This document shows, one piece after another, positions 2,889 through 9,833 of a DNA stretch of 20,393 nt. The stretch spans positions 1 through 20,393 of IMG/VR virus record IMGVR_UViG_3300030106_000525; one strand, 5' to 3'. The position numbers and the translations under genes are program-made. Under the pieces are notes generated by a model, which saw only the letters and a program-made list of their open reading frames with translations, was not told where the DNA came from and did not search any database. This stretch comes from a virus. Position 1 is the first letter of the stretch, and every line of letters starts with the position of its first letter.

Positions 2889-3707
2889 TTACACTCCACA
2901 CATTCCGTCACATTCATCTAAGAAATTCAACTGACCCTTATCCTCAGCAGAAGAAAAATCTACCTCTGACAATGGCTTCAAAGATGAATGAACAAATTGT
3001 TCTACATTTTTTACATTTTGTGTCCTAATGTTTTTATCAAACTCAACTGCATCATTAAAACTTTTCGGATCATTAATTTTCATGTCACGCCAAAGTTTGT
3101 TATCGTGATACGGACAAGCTATACAAGCAGATTTAGCTAATTTTTTGTTAGGATAATGTTTGTTAAACCACTCATGGCAATGATGCCTTTTCATGCCTAA
3201 CTCAAGCAATGGCCACCTATTTATAATGTATTTATCTTTATTTTCTTTTACTCGTTGTATTTCATCAACAGATATACCTATCCATGTCTCACATAAAACA
3301 TCTTTAGCTCTCTGTCCTTTTTTTAAACCGAGCAATTCTCTTGTCTTGGTTCTAATTGGTTGTATCTTGTAATCATTGGTGCATTGTCTCATACCTATAC
3401 CAGACTTTGTAAAAAACGGCATGGTAACAAACTTACTACCAGACTTGTTTACACCTTTTAATGCGTGTTCTTTGATATTACCTATTGTAACCTTATAGAC
3501 AGGATAAGGTAATCTTTCCTCTAACCATTCAAGATGTTCATAAACACCATCTGGTTCGTACTGTGTGTCTGCAAATATAGCACAATCTGGCATAGGTGTT
3601 ATCTCACCTTTAGCTGCCATCAAAGCTAGTACAGATGATTGTACTCCAGCACCTAGACTAATAACTCTTAAATTAGCGTTTGGCACTTCTTTGCTAAAAC
3701 TTATCAC
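2889..3707 (-). CDS. PP-loop / phosphoadenosine phosphosulfate reductase-like protein
   Basis: Member of the adenine-nucleotide alpha-hydrolase fold family that phage annotations often call PAPS reductase. Near the N-terminus is a PP-loop-like SLGAGVQSS, followed about 25 residues later by FADTQYEP, the usual second substrate-loop position. Further on are RQCTNDYKI, WIGISVDEIQR, a HHCHEWF segment and a CIACPYHDN motif (CxxC), with another Cys pair (CDGMC) at the C-terminus; these may bind metal or a cluster. The start is taken as GTG at 3707, which overlaps the upstream stop as GTGA and has GGGGGAG about 9 bases upstream; a TTG at 3716 is the alternative. Real sulfate reduction is unlikely from context. 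Members could activate substrates by adenylation for nucleic-acid modification, but this is inference. Confidence 0.8.
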   Translation of the reverse strand: MISFSKEVPNANLRVISLGAGVQSSVLALMAAKGEITPMPDCAIFADTQYEPDGVYEHLEWLEERLPYPVYKVTIGNIKEHALKGVNKSGSKFVTMPFFTKSGIGMRQCTNDYKIQPIRTKTRELLGLKKGQRAKDVLCETWIGISVDEIQRVKENKDKYIINRWPLLELGMKRHHCHEWFNKHYPNKKLAKSACIACPYHDNKLWRDMKINDPKSFNDAVEFDKNIRTQNVKNVEQFVHSSLKPLSEVDFSSAEDKGQLNFLDECDGMCGV

Positions 3708-4444
3708 TCCCAACAACTCCCCCTAAACTCACAATACTTACAAGCATAATAATCTGAGTCAACTGCAATTCTTGGCAATAGCTCATTATTCTTACTTGCA
3801 TTTAAAATATCTACGGCTTTATCACTTGTCTTCTGTGCAAGGTGCATATTAAACGGAACAAGTTCAAAATATATCTCGCAAGTATTTTTGTTGATGACAG
3901 TAAACAATGCAGGATTGTCTGTCAAATTCATGTAAGACTGATATAAAGCAATCTGTGCTGCATATGTTTCATTTGTCCTTAGTACGCCTTTCCGAACAAA
4001 TTCATTGAAGCTCTTGTCATTAGCAGACTTACACTCCCACAACATAGGATACTTGATATCATCTGGCCCACCACAGATTACACCATCTATATGACCTCTT
4101 ATCTGATCATCTGCTATGGAAAAACCAAACTGTTCGCCATTCTTATCTGTGCTTCTTAGATCAAAACCTGCATTAACAATCCACCCATGAGCCATGTCTT
4201 CTATCACATGACCAAACTGAAATATCCTATACACCTTTGCAGTAAAGCCACTACCAGGGTCTTGCTCTTTACCCATGTATCTATACTGTATCTTTCTTGC
4301 ACAAGCATCACCCAGAGAAGAAGCACCAAGATAGGTTCTCTGTTTCTCTTTCTTTTTGCTTTCAACTATACTGTCATCAATTAGCTGTGCTATTTTGCTC
4401 TTTGTTTTTTCCAAAGGGGAACTCTGCACTTTTGTCTCCGACAT
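3704..4444 (-). CDS. Cas4-like PD-(D/E)XK nuclease with four-Cys cluster
   Basis: Predicted DNA exonuclease of the Cas4/RecB-nuclease type. From the ATG at 4444 (246 aa) it shows a Cys in LGASSLGDACARK, a His in QFGHVIED, the catalytic Asp in GHIDGV, the ExK pair in LWECKSAN and the QIALYQSYM motif. Three Cys at the C-terminus (CKYCEFRGSCW) with the N-terminal Cys form the four-Cys Fe-S ligand set of Cas4 and AddB. The reading frame extends upstream to an ATG at 4489 (261 aa), but that deepens the overlap with the preceding gene to 113 bases and the AGGAG there abuts the ATG. Neither start has a good Shine-Dalgarno, so it stays open. No CRISPR array or cas1/cas2 is present, so a role in recombination or end processing is more likely. 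Confidence 0.85.
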   Translation of the reverse strand: MSETKVQSSPLEKTKSKIAQLIDDSIVESKKKEKQRTYLGASSLGDACARKIQYRYMGKEQDPGSGFTAKVYRIFQFGHVIEDMAHGWIVNAGFDLRSTDKNGEQFGFSIADDQIRGHIDGVICGGPDDIKYPMLWECKSANDKSFNEFVRKGVLRTNETYAAQIALYQSYMNLTDNPALFTVINKNTCEIYFELVPFNMHLAQKTSDKAVDILNASKNNELLPRIAVDSDYYACKYCEFRGSCWE

Positions 4445-4622
4445 TGTATTTGAGCCAAATGGCTGCCAAGTAAGTTTCGTCAACGTCATCTCCTACATCC
4501 TTCATTTGTTGTATTGTCATTACTAAATATAAAATTGCCTGCTCATCTAGCTCAGATAACTTTGTGTTCCAGTCTAACTGACCACAGAGCTTGGCTACAT
4601 CCTTTAAAATATTAAATGTCAT
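4377..4622 (-). CDS. Hypothetical 81-aa protein
   Basis: An 81-residue protein beginning MTFNILKDVAKLCGQLDW, mostly predicted helical by eye, ending in a polar tail. It lies between the methyltransferase second half (11-base overlap at its start) and the Cas4-like nuclease (68-base overlap at its end). I do not recognise a family. It shows no membrane segment or metal-binding pattern. The tight overlaps on both sides support it as a real, translationally coupled gene, though the length of the overlap with the nuclease leaves the exact boundary uncertain. Confidence 0.55.
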   Translation of the reverse strand: MTFNILKDVAKLCGQLDWNTKLSELDEQAILYLVMTIQQMKDVGDDVDETYLAAIWLKYNVGDKSAEFPFGKNKEQNSTAN

Positions 4623-5478
4623 TCTCTGCTTCCATTATAGCTTTTCCTATCATTTCTGCAATCTGTGGCACAATAGCATTACCAAGACCTTTAAGTCTTT
4701 TCATCCTATCCTTTTGACCAACTGCCACTCTTGGCGTATCCTTCTCCCAGTTCTCATCCCATACAACCCGAACATTTTTAAGGGAAGCGTCTTGATTCTT
4801 TAAATCAGTCCACCCTTTCGGATAACCCATAAGTAATTCAACCCACTCAGAGGCTAACGTACCCTCACCAGTATTACGAACATTTGGATCATTACCCAAC
4901 ATTTTCTGCATATTGCCACCAGCCTTGCCTGCAGCATCTTCATTAGCAGTAGGTGTTGGAAACATTTGTAAATGCTGAATAGCATCTGGCAATGAGTTTG
5001 TTTCTGGGTTTCTACCTGTCTTTGCCATTGTTTCTGGCTTTCGTGGCATTAGATGATCTCTTGCAGTTGGCGTTGGAAAATTCCACTTCACCATTCTTGG
5101 TGGTCGCAATGTTGTGCCATTCATCATCTGTTCGGCTTCTATTTCTGTAAGCACACCTTCTTCAACCATCTTTCTCAACATCAACGTCTGACCTTCAGAT
5201 GCGTGACCATAACCTTTTGTAGTAGGTGTTGGCCACATTACTTTTTGATTTTCCTCAATAACTTTAGTCGCAAGAGTATGTGATCTTGTTTTGCCTACAG
5301 AAGGTGGTACTTTTTTTCCATCTTTATAATCTCTTGCTCTTGGAGTAGGCCACACTTTAACAGAGTCTGCTAAATTTAAACTGTGACTGCTATTGCCGTC
5401 CTTAGACTTACGTCTACCATTTTCTGTAAGTTCTGCTTGTGGATGCTCTATCTCTTGTGTTGTAGGTGTCGGCCACAT
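4612..5478 (-). CDS. Cytosine-5 DNA methyltransferase, C-terminal half (target recognition and motif X)
   Basis: Second half of a C5-cytosine methyltransferase. The 288-aa product starts at an ATG one base after the stop of the catalytic half, in the next frame. It holds five repeats starting WPTP or FPTP at about residues 2, 43, 82, 134 and 173, spaced 39-52 residues, several ending in an S/T-L-x3-V helix. It ends with SEWVELLMGYPKGWT (about 210-224), a segment I associate with phage methyltransferase C-termini, and RLKGLGNAIVPQ (about 261-272), matching motif X. There is no catalytic PCQ here. No Shine-Dalgarno precedes the ATG, so translation may be coupled to the upstream stop or reached by frameshifting. 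The same frame is open further upstream to 5868, but that stretch only shadows the catalytic half. It would supply DNA specificity. Confidence 0.75.
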   Translation of the reverse strand: MWPTPTTQEIEHPQAELTENGRRKSKDGNSSHSLNLADSVKVWPTPRARDYKDGKKVPPSVGKTRSHTLATKVIEENQKVMWPTPTTKGYGHASEGQTLMLRKMVEEGVLTEIEAEQMMNGTTLRPPRMVKWNFPTPTARDHLMPRKPETMAKTGRNPETNSLPDAIQHLQMFPTPTANEDAAGKAGGNMQKMLGNDPNVRNTGEGTLASEWVELLMGYPKGWTDLKNQDASLKNVRVVWDENWEKDTPRVAVGQKDRMKRLKGLGNAIVPQIAEMIGKAIMEAENDI

Positions 5479-5479
5479 A

Positions 5480-6079
5480 TTAGAAGAGTGAGATTTGTTC
5501 GGGTTGTTTAAGCTCTTTTGATTCTTTTCTAACGATTGGTTTACCATCTCCTCTTGGATTAGCAATGATCCAGACTCGTTCTCTTCTGTGGAAAGCACCG
5601 ACCCCTGAAGCTGGAATAATATGTGGGATGGCTTGATACCCAATACTTTCCAAGTCAGAGAGTGTCCTTTGCAATCCCAATGGCTCATTAACAAAGCCTC
5701 GCACATTTTCTCCAATGACCCATTTAGGTTGTAGGTTTTCAATAATGGCAACCATTTCTGGCCAGAGATCGCGGTCGTCATCTGCTCCCTTTCTTGATCC
5801 TGCCAACGACCAGGGCTGACATGGGAAACCTCCTGTGATGATGTCAATTTTTCCAAGTTCTTTTTCATTTATTGTCCTCACATCTTCATATATCGGCACA
5901 TTAGGCCAACGCTTTTTTAAAATTTCTTGAGCAAATGGTTCGTTGTCGCAAAATGCAACTGTTTCAAATCCACTAGCCCAACTTAAACCTAAAGCAAATC
6001 CACCAATACCACTAAACAAATCTAAATGTCTTAATGGATTGTTGGGTCGTCTTTGTTCATCATTATCTTTTTCTTCCAT
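5480..6079 (-). CDS. Cytosine-5 DNA methyltransferase, catalytic half
   Basis: The 199-aa product carries the AdoMet and catalytic motifs of C5-cytosine methyltransferases: motif I DLFSGIGGF (20-28), motif IV GGFPCQPWS with the nucleophile Cys87, motif VI GENVRG (123-128) and motif VIII HRRERVW (164-170). It stops soon after motif VIII, before the target-recognition region, which is encoded in the next frame one base after the stop. It ends EQISLF, close to the consensus QLxLF pentapeptide that binds the DnaN sliding clamp; this supports a genuine C-terminus. The ATG at 6079 has GGGAG upstream and overlaps the previous gene by 49 bases. It would methylate phage DNA, perhaps against host restriction, or act with a host enzyme. 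M.AquI-type enzymes are known natural two-subunit examples. Confidence 0.85.
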   Translation of the reverse strand: MEEKDNDEQRRPNNPLRHLDLFSGIGGFALGLSWASGFETVAFCDNEPFAQEILKKRWPNVPIYEDVRTINEKELGKIDIITGGFPCQPWSLAGSRKGADDDRDLWPEMVAIIENLQPKWVIGENVRGFVNEPLGLQRTLSDLESIGYQAIPHIIPASGVGAFHRRERVWIIANPRGDGKPIVRKESKELKQPEQISLF

Positions 6080-6297
6080 CCTACTCCCTCTTCATCTCTC
6101 ATAAAGTACACAGTAAATAACTCTGACCCCATATGAGATATGATTGCATGACCTGAATTAGTGATGTCGTTATTTGTATCGAAAACTGTCTGTAACTTAT
6201 CCTCTAGTTCAAATAAAAAACCACTGTCATCTAAGTCATTTTTTAATGCAGTAAAGAAATTTACATGAAGTATACCCTCATCTGTATCTAATAACAT
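6031..6297 (-). CDS. Hypothetical 88-aa protein
   Basis: A small, acidic protein beginning MLLDTDEGILHVNFF and ending KKIMMNKDDPTIH. No motif I recognise. The start is placed at the ATG at 6297, which has an excellent AGAGGTG Shine-Dalgarno three bases away; a GTG at 6318 overlapping the helicase stop (TAGTG) would add seven residues. The 3' end overlaps the methyltransferase start by 49 bases in a different frame, so the last residues (EEGVGWKKKIMMNK) come from DNA that also holds that gene's Shine-Dalgarno. It sits between the SF2 helicase and the methyltransferase; function unknown. Confidence 0.55.
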   Translation of the reverse strand: MLLDTDEGILHVNFFTALKNDLDDSGFLFELEDKLQTVFDTNNDITNSGHAIISHMGSELFTVYFMRDEEGVGWKKKIMMNKDDPTIH

Positions 6298-6317: not shown

Positions 6318-7991
6318 CTATGCAACATCCTTATTCATTACATTATAAATCATGGCATCAATGCCTTGTTTGTTCCAAAGATAGTTAAGGTGACAAGCTG
6401 CTCTGTACTTCGTCCAAGAGAAGTCAAAAGGATTTATAGTAATTCCTAAATTACCTAACATTATTCTCTGTTTATCACTAATCTTCTCATTAAGCCATCT
6501 TTTACCTTTCTTAGAACTATCACTATCTTCAATCTCTCTTAGAAAGTCGTCAGCAGACGCAATTGCTTGTTGCCTTGTTCCTATACTGACCATCCTTAAC
6601 TTGCCACCTGTACGCTTTACAATGCCACAAGACAAGTCTCCAAGATCAGCAATCAACGCAAAACCATTAAATCCTGTCGCAGACAAGCATTTACCTGTTC
6701 CAAATATATCTGTCCATCTAAACGGAGAGCGATCAATAAGTTCTACCTCTGTCATGTTAAACTCTACAAGGTTATCATCTTTGTCTTGACCAAACTCAAA
6801 ACCACAGATAGGACACTCTCTTACACCTAATGGCACTACAGAGTTACATTCAGGACAAGACTTCTCTGGTGCTTGACCACTGCCGTCTGCCTTGCCGCCA
6901 TCAAGATTGACATCATCTTCTAACGATCCATGTGTTAACACAGATGTACCAAAGTCTAATACGATACAATCTGTCTTAATAATGTTAGGATGTTCATCTG
7001 GATTAATTGTTCTTAATCCTCTGCCAATCATCTGTACCATTGTTGCTTTATAAGAACATGGTCTTGTTAATATAATGCAAGAGACAGGTGGTGCATCAAA
7101 ACCCTCTGTCAATACTGCCACATTTACAACTACCTGGAGTTCACCATTCTCTAAATCCTCAAGCATATTTGCACGAACAGTTTTATCTGTTTCACCTGTT
7201 ACAACTTCTGCTCTAACACCTTGATTGACAAACTCATCACATAAGTCTTCTGCATGAGCCACAGTAGAACAGAATACAACTGTCTTACGATCTGCTGCTC
7301 TTTGTCTCCATTCATCAACAACTCTTTGATTAATAGCTCGTTTGTTCATAATACGAGCCACCTGATCCATATCAAAATCAACTATTGTTTTACGAACATT
7401 TTGCAGTTCAGAACGTACACCTACGTCAATAACGTAAGTTCTTGGAGTTACAAGAAAACCCTCACGAATGAGTGTTGATATTTCTATTTGATGGCTGCAA
7501 TTGGTAAAGACCTCACGTAAACCTTTTTTATCACCACGATTAGGTGTGGCAGTAAAGCCAACGATTTCAACATTCTTATTAGTTTGTTTAGCATGATTAA
7601 TAATTCTTAGGTAAGTATCTGCAACAATGTGATGGCTCTCATCAACAACTACCATGTCAATTGGCTTCATGTTCTGCAAATTGTTCGGTCTTGATAACGT
7701 CTGCACCATAGAGAATACAGTGTCACCAGACCAATCTTTCGCTTCAGCATTGACAACGCTAGTAGATATGTTCGGATTAACTCTCTTAAACTTGTCCATG
7801 TTCTGGTTAACAAGCTCATCTCTGTGCTGTAATACAAGAACATTCTTATTATCTTTTCTCTTACCGATAAGAGATGACAACATGATTGTCTTGCCAGCTC
7901 CTGTAGGTGCGACAACAACAGTATTACCATGCTTGTCTAAAGCATCTGATGCAGAGTTAACTGCTATCTCTTGATATGGTCTAAGTAGCAT
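6318..7991 (-). CDS. SF2 DEAD/DEAH-box helicase with zinc ribbon
   Basis: Superfamily 2 helicase of 557 aa. Motif I APTGAGKT (28-35), motif II DESH (117-120), motif III TATP (147-150), a TEGFD segment (295-299) and motif VI QMIGRGLR (320-327) are all intact. A CPEC-x10-CPIC zinc ribbon follows at 379-396, then a unique C-terminal domain of about 160 residues ending with a Trp- and Tyr-rich stretch (WTKYRAACHLNYLW) similar to tails of phage helicases. Such proteins remodel forks or recombination intermediates, as UvsW does in T4, which fits the Sak4-like ATPase and Cas4-like nuclease in the same operon. The ATG at 7991 overlaps the preceding stop (TAATG). Confidence 0.9.
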   Translation of the reverse strand: MLLRPYQEIAVNSASDALDKHGNTVVVAPTGAGKTIMLSSLIGKRKDNKNVLVLQHRDELVNQNMDKFKRVNPNISTSVVNAEAKDWSGDTVFSMVQTLSRPNNLQNMKPIDMVVVDESHHIVADTYLRIINHAKQTNKNVEIVGFTATPNRGDKKGLREVFTNCSHQIEISTLIREGFLVTPRTYVIDVGVRSELQNVRKTIVDFDMDQVARIMNKRAINQRVVDEWRQRAADRKTVVFCSTVAHAEDLCDEFVNQGVRAEVVTGETDKTVRANMLEDLENGELQVVVNVAVLTEGFDAPPVSCIILTRPCSYKATMVQMIGRGLRTINPDEHPNIIKTDCIVLDFGTSVLTHGSLEDDVNLDGGKADGSGQAPEKSCPECNSVVPLGVRECPICGFEFGQDKDDNLVEFNMTEVELIDRSPFRWTDIFGTGKCLSATGFNGFALIADLGDLSCGIVKRTGGKLRMVSIGTRQQAIASADDFLREIEDSDSSKKGKRWLNEKISDKQRIMLGNLGITINPFDFSWTKYRAACHLNYLWNKQGIDAMIYNVMNKDVA

Positions 7992-8058
7992 TACTCATGT
8001 TCCCATCTATAGAATATGTGATCATTAATACGAACAGTTCTTGTAAACTTCTCTGACC
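7991..8058. repeat. Duplicated hydrolase-tail segment, copy 1
   Basis: 68-bp segment matching 8258-8325 at 56 of 68 positions by direct comparison. It encodes the last 20 or so residues of the 39-aa ORF, with the 19-residue identical string SEKFTRTVRINDHIFYRWE. The differences are largely synonymous, so the peptide has been kept while the DNA drifted. Confidence 0.85.
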
Positions 8059-8110
8059 CAAATGTACTATAAGTATATCCATTTTTTTTTATAAAGTTTT
8101 TTAGTTTCAT
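7991..8110 (-). CDS. 39-aa protein repeating the cell-wall hydrolase C-terminus
   Basis: The start is placed at ATG 8110 because GGAG lies eight bases upstream and the longer reading (to 8206) merely shadows the small CxxC gene. The product has a basic N-terminal half (MKLKNFIKKNGYTYSTFG) joined to a segment identical over 19 residues to the C-terminus of the SleB-type hydrolase encoded just upstream. It lacks the hydrolase catalytic region. It may be a remnant of a duplication, a decoy or partner subunit that shares the hydrolase tail, or just a leader for coupling to the helicase, whose ATG overlaps its stop. Function unknown. Confidence 0.5.
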   Translation of the reverse strand: MKLKNFIKKNGYTYSTFGSEKFTRTVRINDHIFYRWEHE

Positions 8111-8122
8111 TATTCTATCTCC
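8105..8122 (-). repeat. 18-bp start-site repeat, copy 1
   Basis: On the minus strand GGAGATAGAATAATGAAA, giving the ribosome-binding site and start of the 39-aa ORF. An identical 18-mer at 8253-8270 forms the end of the hydrolase gene and the start of the 47-aa gene. Confidence 0.8.
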
Positions 8123-8258
8123 TACTCTCTGCTTTTCTATCTGTCGTTTTATATGTTCTACTAAAAACGTATTCTCTTCCATGCTGAGAACATAGATATT
8201 TACCATGCTCTATAACAGTAGCTTCTTTGTTGCATTTGATGCACTTATGTTTTTTCAT
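8115..8258 (-). CDS. Small 47-aa CxxC/CxxH zinc-finger-like protein
   Basis: This 47-residue ORF begins MKKHKCIKCNKEATVIEHGK and has Cys6, Cys9, Cys23 and His26, a CxxC-x13-CxxH layout that could bind one zinc ion. The remainder is basic (ending KAESRR), which would suit nucleic-acid binding. The ATG at 8258 overlaps the hydrolase stop (TAATG) with GGAG eight bases upstream, and its 3' end lies just before the start of the 39-aa ORF. Small proteins of this kind are frequent in phages and mostly uncharacterised. The longer ORF reading through this DNA in another frame is its shadow. Confidence 0.6.
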   Translation of the reverse strand: MKKHKCIKCNKEATVIEHGKYLCSQHGREYVFSRTYKTTDRKAESRR

Positions 8259-8270
8259 TATTCTATCTCC
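8253..8270 (-). repeat. 18-bp start-site repeat, copy 2
   Basis: Same 18-mer as 8105-8122, here encoding the hydrolase C-terminus (Trp-Glu-Ile-Glu-stop) while acting as Shine-Dalgarno and start for the 47-aa gene. Confidence 0.8.
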
Positions 8271-8325
8271 CATCTATAAAATATGTGGTCATTTATTCTT
8301 ACAGTTCTGGTAAACTTCTCTGACC
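8258..8325. repeat. Duplicated hydrolase-tail segment, copy 2 (probable parent)
   Basis: 3' end of the hydrolase gene, matching 7991-8058 at 56 of 68 positions. This copy is taken as the parent because the segment is a natural part of the hydrolase fold here. Confidence 0.8.
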
Positions 8326-8680
8326 AGCTAGGTTTGACATAATGAGCATGATAATGTGTTGCTCCATTTGTAACATCAAACAAATATCCAGCCATCACTG
8401 CTTCAGCTATGTCAATAGCAAAACCCCAAGCAACCATGTCATCAATCTTTTCTGGTTTACCATCACACCAAAATGTAAACTGACATTCCCATTTTATAGG
8501 GATGCTGGTATCCCAACTATAATAGTTCCCTTGTTTCACAACATCACAAACATTATCTGGAAACCTATAGTCATACACTCGTTGTTGAATTGTTTGTGCC
8601 ACTGCGATTCTACCTACAGGTGGCTCTCCTCTAGCTTCAAAGAAAATGGCTGTGGCCATGCAAGTTATAGCATCAAACAT
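8258..8680 (-). CDS. SleB-type cell-wall hydrolase (Hydrolase_2 family)
   Basis: A 140-aa enzyme predicted to cleave peptidoglycan glycan strands, like the catalytic domain of the spore-cortex hydrolase SleB. It shows the EARGE motif (FFEARGEPPVGRIAVAQT, about 13-30) with probable catalytic Glu15, then ECQFTFWCDG (66-74), and the family's HYHAHYVKPSW (109-119) and tail ending in NDHIFYRW. No signal peptide is visible, so export would need a holin or incorporation in the virion. The ATG at 8680 has GAGAGGA eight bases upstream and overlaps the previous stop by eight bases; ATGs at 8716 and 8731 lie deeper in that gene. It is unusual in sitting within the replication operon, far from the T4-type lysozyme. 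Confidence 0.85.
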   Translation of the reverse strand: MFDAITCMATAIFFEARGEPPVGRIAVAQTIQQRVYDYRFPDNVCDVVKQGNYYSWDTSIPIKWECQFTFWCDGKPEKIDDMVAWGFAIDIAEAVMAGYLFDVTNGATHYHAHYVKPSWSEKFTRTVRINDHIFYRWEIE

Positions 8681-9833
8681 TGGTATTTTCCTCTCTGCCT
8701 CGTAAGATGTAATCATGTTCAATAATACCATTTTTCTTACTGCCTACCTTCATAGGCTCAATCCATATTCTTTTACCATCTGGCTTTCTTCTCCAGTGTC
8801 CTCTTCTCATATGTTCTGCTTTTGGTGTTCCTGTGCCACTGACAATACCTTTATAAACTTTTCTGATGTTAGGTTTAGGTAAATCAATTGTCACTAATTT
8901 AAGAGTATGTTTTGGTGCAATAACACCATATCGAGTATGTGTTACTTTAGGATTAGTTTTTGCATTGTTGTAAACAATATGATCATAATTAAGTGTACCT
9001 AAGATAGATATGATAAGTCTTAAATCACCCTCCATAGCAATTAAATCACCCTCAACTTGCTTACTCATACGATCATGGTCAAAACCACTGTTAAATTGTT
9101 TATCGGTAAGAAACATTTCTATGCCAATGGATTGACCTGTTTCAATCCTATCTTTAAACCATCCAAATGCTTTATTGTTATTTTTTTCTTTGACTGATTT
9201 CATGTACCCATTACCAAGCAAACTCTCCATAGTTTTTGTTCTGCTTAACTCTAGTAATTTTTTATCACGTACATTTACATTTCTATCCCAGTCAACAATA
9301 TCCTTAAATGCTTGTGATAATAACTTATTGTCATTAGAAAAATAGAAACCATTTCCAGAACAAAGTATTTTGCCGTTTGCAAAATTTTTATCGACACCAT
9401 ACATTGTATAAAAATATTGATTATTAATTTTTTGAATATGATAACCAACCTTTTCTAAACCTTCATATTTTTTTTCTAAAACATTATAGGTTGATCTAAG
9501 ACTATCATTTAATTTATAATCACAAATATTTAATCTTGATTTTTCATCCCATTCAATCCACATATTATTAAATGGTGGTATTGCTCTTTTAGCTAATTCT
9601 ACTAATTTAGTTGGACTTTCATAAGATAAATTTGTTGCTACTTCTAACAGTTTGTTATCAATAAAAAACTTTTGAGCATCAACTAATTCTCTTCTAGCTC
9701 TTCTTGATGCCATAATAGCATTTTTATTTGTATCTCTTTTACCAGCTTTTTTATTACTACAGAAATAATAGATACCTCTGTCTGGATTTGATAATCCAGC
9801 TAATACTTGATTTGCAAATAAGATATCATCCAT
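8673..9833 (-). CDS. Conserved-looking phage protein of unknown function, 386 aa
   Basis: A soluble protein beginning MDDILFANQVLAGLSNPDRG, rich in Lys, Asn and Tyr, without signal peptide or membrane segment. The C-terminal 60 residues have HMRRGHWRRKPDGKRIWIEP followed by VGSKKNG and a final His-Asp-Tyr, a pattern I associate with uncharacterised phage proteins whose tails are rich in Arg, His and Trp and may bind nucleic acid. The ATG at 9833 has AGGGG six bases upstream. The central part (YTMYGVDKNF, FDIVDWD-like stretches) matches nothing I know. It is the first gene after the two-hairpin leader and so may be regulated separately from the genes before it. A primary role in replication or host takeover is possible but not shown. 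Confidence 0.65.
   Translation of the reverse strand: MDDILFANQVLAGLSNPDRGIYYFCSNKKAGKRDTNKNAIMASRRARRELVDAQKFFIDNKLLEVATNLSYESPTKLVELAKRAIPPFNNMWIEWDEKSRLNICDYKLNDSLRSTYNVLEKKYEGLEKVGYHIQKINNQYFYTMYGVDKNFANGKILCSGNGFYFSNDNKLLSQAFKDIVDWDRNVNVRDKKLLELSRTKTMESLLGNGYMKSVKEKNNNKAFGWFKDRIETGQSIGIEMFLTDKQFNSGFDHDRMSKQVEGDLIAMEGDLRLIISILGTLNYDHIVYNNAKTNPKVTHTRYGVIAPKHTLKLVTIDLPKPNIRKVYKGIVSGTGTPKAEHMRRGHWRRKPDGKRIWIEPMKVGSKKNGIIEHDYILRGREENTNV

Follow-up and report, generated by a model that had tools for sequence, protein, structure and literature searches.

C5-cytosine methyltransferases composed of two polypeptides occur naturally (PMC3404938). In M.AquI (CYCGRG), the alpha subunit holds motifs I-VIII and the beta subunit motifs IX-X; in M.EcoHK31I (YGGCCR), the large subunit carries motifs I-VIII together with motif X, and motif IX is found only in the small polypeptide (PMC3404938). 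Bisected C5 enzymes showed the best complementation when they were cut between motif VIII and the target-recognition domain (TRD) (PMC3404938, PMC5944983). Out-of-frame coding within a phage methylase gene has also been described for the ShiLan domain, an inserted HNH homing endonuclease gene of patchy presence (PMC11855218). Here, we analyzed a methyltransferase locus at positions 4612 to 6079 of a viral DNA stretch of 20,393 nucleotides (nt) from the record IMGVR_UViG_3300030106_000525, hereafter called the window; the features of this locus lie on the minus strand. The best explanation of the locus as a whole, to which we assign a probability of roughly 70%, is a heterodimeric C5-cytosine methyltransferase encoded by two overlapping genes. 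A functional split C5 enzyme with the layout of M.AquI had already been proposed in a first-pass annotation of the bare sequence, and it stays the best reading, with error, pseudogene, and frameshift contradicted by the data; what that annotation had missed are the overlapping internal start of the second gene and the family of nested relatives to which it belongs.

Two Overlapping Reading Frames

The first open reading frame (ORF1, 5480..6079, 199 amino acids, stop codon at 5480-5482), whose product we call alpha, is preceded by a Shine-Dalgarno-like GAGGGAG (6084-6090) and encodes motifs I-VIII of a C5-cytosine methyltransferase. Profile searches matched it to PF00145 (DNA_methylase) at 2.7e-47 and to TIGR00675 at 9.7e-39. 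Motifs I, IV (PCQ, 5816..5824), VI (ENV), and VIII (RxR) are all located in ORF1, the stop codon of which lies directly 3' of motif VIII (HRRERVWII), and motif X (GNA) is located in ORF2. Alpha ends in ...KQPEQISLF, and the last five residues, QISLF (5483..5497), represent by their sequence a pentapeptide of the DnaN-clamp-binding type, which is kept in three of three relatives. That motifs I-VIII end at 5480 and that the first half ends in EQISLF had both been stated in the first-pass annotation; the PF00145 match together with the stop after HRRERVWII bears out the former, the translation of ORF1 the latter.

ORF2 (4612..5868, 418 amino acids), encoding the product beta, lies in the +1 frame relative to ORF1 and overlaps it by 389 nt (5480..5868), the two genes using different frames; the letters of motif IV, for example, are read in the +1 frame as part of ‘EVSHVSPG’ of ORF2. 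Beginning at ATG 5868, with a Shine-Dalgarno-like GAGG (5876..5879) 7 nt ahead of it, or alternatively at ATG 5781 (MTTAISG...), preceded by a Shine-Dalgarno-like GGGAG (5785..5789), ORF2 runs through five [W/F]PTP modules (4864..5475), which vary in number and order among relatives, a motif-IX-like segment (4801..4857, LASEWVELLMGYPKGWTDL), and motif X (4615..4698, RLKGLGNAIVPQIAEMIGKAI). It is in this +1 frame that the WPTP repeats as well as motif X (RLKGLGNAIVPQ) are read. Residues 3-219 of ORF2, overlap included, matched phrog_1008, annotated as ‘DNA methyltransferase’, at 9e-32, and a Pfam search with ORF2 and eight relatives gave no significant match, E values of up to 5-10 representing noise only. 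We consider it very likely that ORF2 is a real gene beginning inside ORF1.

Recurrence of the Split and Selection on ORF2

An identical stop and an identical split were found in three other contigs (L002/L085, L003, and L004/L086; 97% identical in ORF1), so that the first-pass annotation's own check, whether the split position recurs in other genomes, came out positive. In frame 0, the 289 codons past the ORF1 stop contain 26 stops in the window, the corresponding number in the relatives being 26-34; this frame was, therefore, given up long ago. In the 288 codons of ORF2 outside the overlap, the window and L085 are separated by nine synonymous and no non-synonymous changes, the window and L003 by 12 synonymous and two non-synonymous ones, corresponding to a ratio of non-synonymous to synonymous substitution rates (dN/dS) of 0.046. 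Within the overlap, ORF2 codons 20-98 revealed no change over 234 nt among the window, L003, and L085, and changes relative to L003/L085 are present before codon 20 and after codon 98. At a larger scale, L086 and L087 are distinguished from the window by entire WPTP modules.

Nested Relatives

Paenibacillus phages such as Diva carry a homologue of ORF2 that is annotated as an internal gene, the surrounding DNA-cytosine methyltransferase gene being intact. Scanning viral contigs with the ORF2 family yielded at least 442 relatives, and in 89 of the 108 loci analyzed the family ORF lies in the +1 frame within an uninterrupted methyltransferase frame extending as far as motif X; in these nested relatives, motifs I-VIII and X share one frame. 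The C-terminal part of the ORF2 family was present in all 75 evaluable methyltransferases of a set fetched by similarity to ORF1 only, 74 times in the +1 frame. One genome scan gave 274 relatives, of which the best 80 loci were analyzed; 73 of these 80 are nested, and they come from Bacteroidota, Verrucomicrobiota, Bacillota, Acidobacteriota, Pseudomonadota, Chloroflexota, and others. A fusion within the same frame, looked for as motif IV in the own frame of ORF2-family ORFs, was found in none of 198 cases in the viral set. One locus from the genomes, L249, has both motifs in a single frame. Homologues intact throughout had been named in the first-pass annotation, together with a differing base count in raw reads, as a finding that would speak against a split enzyme. 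Intact homologues would not have refuted it: most relatives do have an unbroken frame 0, but selection acts on their +1 frame.

Some loci of this collection are worth recording for their layout. In L095 and L096 (2373-3614) and in L169 (2035-3150), the frame-0 methylase is stopped between motifs VIII and X and the +1 ORF is still open. The internal +1 ORF of L167 (2441-4249) comprises 602 codons with seven WPTP-type modules and extends far beyond motif X of the methylase. A chromosome of a Roseovarius metagenome-assembled genome (OX638333.1) harbors at least five copies of one nested methylase locus (L211, L213, L214, L217, and L218), perhaps a multi-copy prophage or mobile element.

Which of the two frames is selected was assessed by ratios of non-synonymous to synonymous differences (pN/pS), which are crude pairwise values among related sequences whose events are not independent. 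For 14 related nested genes, pN/pS across motifs I-IV was 0.07 when read in frame 0 but 3.1 when read in the +1 frame. In the stretch between motifs VIII and X the order was reversed, with 0.11 for the +1 frame against 2.70 for frame 0; the selected frame is here the +1 frame and not that of the methylase. Intermediate ratios, as found across motifs IV-VIII of the same genes (0.19 in frame 0, 0.95 in the +1 frame), are what one would expect of a region in which both frames matter, and in motif X frame 0 is favored again (0.41 vs. 1.1). A second group of 19 nested genes displayed an identical position pattern; in a third, more diverged group of window-like methyltransferases the VIII-X comparison was saturated and uninformative. 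The length of the +1 ORF was reached by at most one in 300 synonymous-codon permutations of frame 0 in 76 of 84 genes and surpassed all 300 in most of the 84, and that of the +2 frame was ordinary in nearly all of the 84. The start regions of internal ORFs often resemble AAAGGAG-N5-9-ATG followed by MTQKELF, MTQMDLF, MESxxxVEQLTLF, and similar sequences, and a Shine-Dalgarno-like sequence precedes 25 of 50 internal starts, 10 being expected from synonymous resampling.

The layout of the window was also encountered in L170, L183, and L275 (Brevibacillus borstelensis), where ORF1 likewise ends just past motif VIII (170-176 amino acids), the +1 ORF continues through LMGFPxGW into motif X, and frame 0 is rich in stops. 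As these sequences are nearer to the Paenibacillus-phage type than to the window, the split layout looks to have arisen at least twice. The nested arrangement is probably the ancestral one, and we infer that the M.AquI-like layout of the window was derived from an M.EcoHK31I-like layout.

Clamp-Type Motifs

In the part of the internal ORF that reaches up to motif IV of the methylase, a Q..[LM]F motif occurs in 30 of 83 non-redundant nested loci, compared with 2.7 +/- 1.6 expected from synonymous resampling of frame 0 (maximum 8 of 500). In another methyltransferase subfamily (L092 and L095), QLDLF is found at a different place relative to the methyltransferase frame, and QLNLF or QLTLF is kept at the N-terminus of ORF2 in L170, L183, and L275. 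The ORF2 N-terminus of the window itself is devoid of it (EKLTSS), with QISLF standing at the end of ORF1 instead. A passage of the motif from one subunit (beta) to the other (the alpha tail) would fit this distribution but is no more than suggestive, the motif of beta being patchy in the clade of the window (12 of 43). The enrichment among internal ORFs lends indirect support to the clamp tether suggested in the first-pass annotation; that the methylase binds the replication clamp has about an even chance.

Predicted Structures and Motif IX

An AlphaFold2 (AF2) model of a nested alpha (frame 0 of L089, 60 homologues) displayed residues 1-160 with a predicted local distance difference test score (pLDDT) of 83-98, residues 161-254 mostly with 41-61 and without secondary structure, and a confident motif X helix at residues 265-284. 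Aligned to M.HhaI over 184 of 327 residues (Z 23), and covering M.HhaI 12-176 by profile at 1e-35 with only a sub-threshold echo of motif X (298-318), the predicted alpha would resemble a catalytic domain that lacks the small DNA-recognising domain. Its stretch between motifs VIII and X is predicted to be disordered.

For ORF2 of the window, AF2 was confident only in residues ~35-90, part of the WPTP modules, the segment resembling motif IX, and the motif X helix at the C-terminus; residues ~35-90, within the overlap with ORF1, were modelled as helices and a beta hairpin at LTWK...LFQL. Near-invariant in the ORF2 family are SG, W64, W73 (of LTWK), PTP, and GxLNPxWVExLMGxP. The last of these (LxxxWVELLMGYPKGW in the window) resembles LHPRECARVMGYPDSYKV of M.HhaI, which lies within its verified residues 272-307; the likeness of the window segment to M.HhaI 274-291 was recognized by eye and is without a significant profile match. 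The segment may represent the motif IX that is absent from alpha. WPTP modules appear to move between methyltransferase subfamilies: L089 and L092, whose alpha I-VIII regions are only 38% identical, have one module in common with 84% identity. Whether it is these modules that determine specificity we regard as evenly balanced.

Discussion

ORF1 and ORF2 together quite probably form one methyltransferase. In such an enzyme, alpha would provide the catalytic domain with motifs I-VIII, and beta, independently initiated within ORF1 in the +1 frame, would contribute an N-terminal folded unit, tandem WPTP modules in place of the TRD, motif IX, and motif X. In the putative ancestral nested state, alpha would comprise motifs I-VIII and, past a disordered filler, motif X, and beta would run in the +1 frame over this filler; in the window lineage, the alpha frame would have closed past motif VIII and motif X would have come into the frame of beta. 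Because the clamp motif QxxLF, common at the N-terminus of beta, stands here at the C-terminus of alpha, the enzyme may possibly be tethered to the replication clamp. As the same second protein is nested in hundreds of phage and bacterial relatives, within methylase genes that look intact, a single stretch of DNA seems to specify the catalytic part of the enzyme as well as its DNA-recognition part. More tentatively, and with somewhat less than even odds, we propose a very widespread class of cytosine methyltransferases, in phages and bacteria, whose recognition subunit is read from the catalytic gene in the +1 frame, shuffles WPTP modules, and often carries an N-terminal clamp motif, a class in which the overlapping genes of the window lineage would have come partly apart. 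If this is true, an exchange of modules would re-program specificity and methylation would be directed at newly replicated DNA. An overlapping subunit would also account for ‘intact’ methylases that seem to be without a folded recognition domain.

Several observations weigh against a heterodimer of this kind. Substitutions among close relatives fall in ORF2 residues 1-29, which is why the exact start of ORF2 is given as either 5868 or 5781. Modelled alone (82 homologues), ORF2 of the window is mostly of low confidence, with an overall pLDDT of 60, and a comparison of this model with known PDB folds (Foldseek/VIA) gave no meaningful match, a weak negative for a model mostly of low confidence. 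Neither the ORF2 family nor its IX-X end brought up anything in profile searches against solved structures, C5 methyltransferases included. Finally, the TRD of M.EcoHK31I has been described in the large subunit (PMC3404938), and here the frame-0 stretch between motifs VIII and X looks unselected. With the missing match of ORF2 alone to a methyltransferase fold or a Pfam family, the clamp motif carried by the internal protein in many relatives, and the predicted TRD in the large subunit of M.EcoHK31I, one might see in the +1 protein a separate partner or regulator, such as a clamp-tethering or DNA-binding accessory, rather than a recognition subunit, leaving alpha with an unusual specificity of its own. 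We consider this unlikely, for in the split loci (the window group, L170, L183, and L275) ORF2 is fused in frame to motif X, replacing the TRD and motif IX, and the VIII-X part of alpha is predicted to be disordered and is unselected in its own frame.

A heterodimer could also have arisen by a simple split of the M.AquI type, in which translation of the second subunit would start at ATG 5478, as the first-pass annotation had it. This ATG lies one base past the ORF1 stop (TAA-T-ATG), making translational coupling possible, and motifs I-VIII and X are divided as in M.AquI, but no Shine-Dalgarno-like sequence was found before it, whereas 5868 and 5781 each have one. The frame is open for 130 codons further upstream, in a family with nested proteins, and ORF2 residues ~35-90 in this upstream part are predicted to be folded, so that a start at 5478 appears improbable. 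The two halves, the second frame with its repeats and motif X, and the ATG itself exist as previously described; the start and the boundary had to be moved, ORF2 being open from 5868 and its beginning lying about 130 codons within the first gene. A programmed frameshift or a single-base error had been held out as alternatives. A +1 shift from ORF1 into ORF2 would use the 389 nt overlap of the frames and, taking place past motif VIII, would yield one long polypeptide and a full-length enzyme; it would, however, lose the C-terminal QISLF of ORF1, is unnecessary given an internal start with a Shine-Dalgarno-like sequence and N-terminal clamp motifs in relatives, and finds no shift-prone site evident by eye at TTC TAA. 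Since the split is common to three further contigs, frame 0 shows 26 stops past ORF1 (26-34 including the relatives), and dN/dS of ORF2 is ~0.05, both alternatives are contradicted, and frameshifting is very improbable. For an assembly error or a decaying pseudogene speaks the interrupted frame and nothing more, and against the same three observations we rate its likelihood as negligible. We, therefore, retain the heterodimer from two overlapping genes as our preferred reading.

Neighboring Genes

Near the methylase, the window encodes a PAPS-reductase-like protein (phrog_424, 2889-3716, minus strand) with the C-terminal region GQLNFLDECDGMCGV, and the same protein type is found near the methylase in L095 (1251-2072). 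The window ORFs at 7991-8206 and 8258-8731 (minus strand) share near-identical tails of 21 residues, SEKFTRTVRINDHIFYRWE(H/I)E, representing a duplicated 3' end; by eye, the longer of them, 8258-8731, looks like a cell-wall hydrolase.

Comparison with Known Systems

The window shares with M.AquI the partition into I-VIII and IX-X, its motif IX being assigned by resemblance only. The subunit genes of M.AquI overlap only shortly, and the window differs in that beta begins in the +1 frame some 130 codons into alpha and possesses a conserved N-terminal domain and WPTP modules. The small subunit of M.EcoHK31I, too, is reportedly read from an alternate frame, in overlap with the large subunit. The partition of M.EcoHK31I, as compared by published description, is shared by the nested relatives but differs from that of the window, where the second polypeptide carries motif X; for M.EcoHK31I, the account consulted (PMC3404938) mentions neither tandem WPTP modules nor clamp motifs.

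With PHROG 1008 and the ‘g49 internal gene’ (AJK27714.1) of Paenibacillus phage Diva, the likeness extends to the gene itself, as this +1 ORF is annotated in Diva and related phages within an uninterrupted methyltransferase gene; the difference lies in motif X, which is in the methyltransferase frame in Diva and in ORF2 in the window. ORF2 also resembles the ShiLan domain in its out-of-frame position inside a phage methylase gene. A hidden HNH endonuclease of the ShiLan type was considered and rejected, given that neither ORF2 nor eight relatives matched an HNH or other Pfam family and that the ORF2 family is present in all evaluable methyltransferases of the set fetched by ORF1 and is not patchy.

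Our literature searches, which reached few subscription papers, found no description of an overlapping gene inside C5 methylases. NCBIfam and Pfam hold no model for the ORF2 family, and in many records the catalytic frame alone is listed. As the overlap joins two frames of what appears to be a single enzyme, half of a common methyltransferase family would, therefore, escape annotation. It is rare for a long same-strand gene overlap to be conserved across phyla. To the extent that this could be checked, the new aspects compared with the described systems are the breadth of the nested family, the evidence for selection, the WPTP modules, the clamp motif, and the conversion from a nested to a split layout. 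They offer a hypothesis, open to direct test, of modular specificity and of methylation coupled to the clamp in phages, and they suggest a route by which an enzyme of the M.EcoHK31I type may have become one of the M.AquI type.
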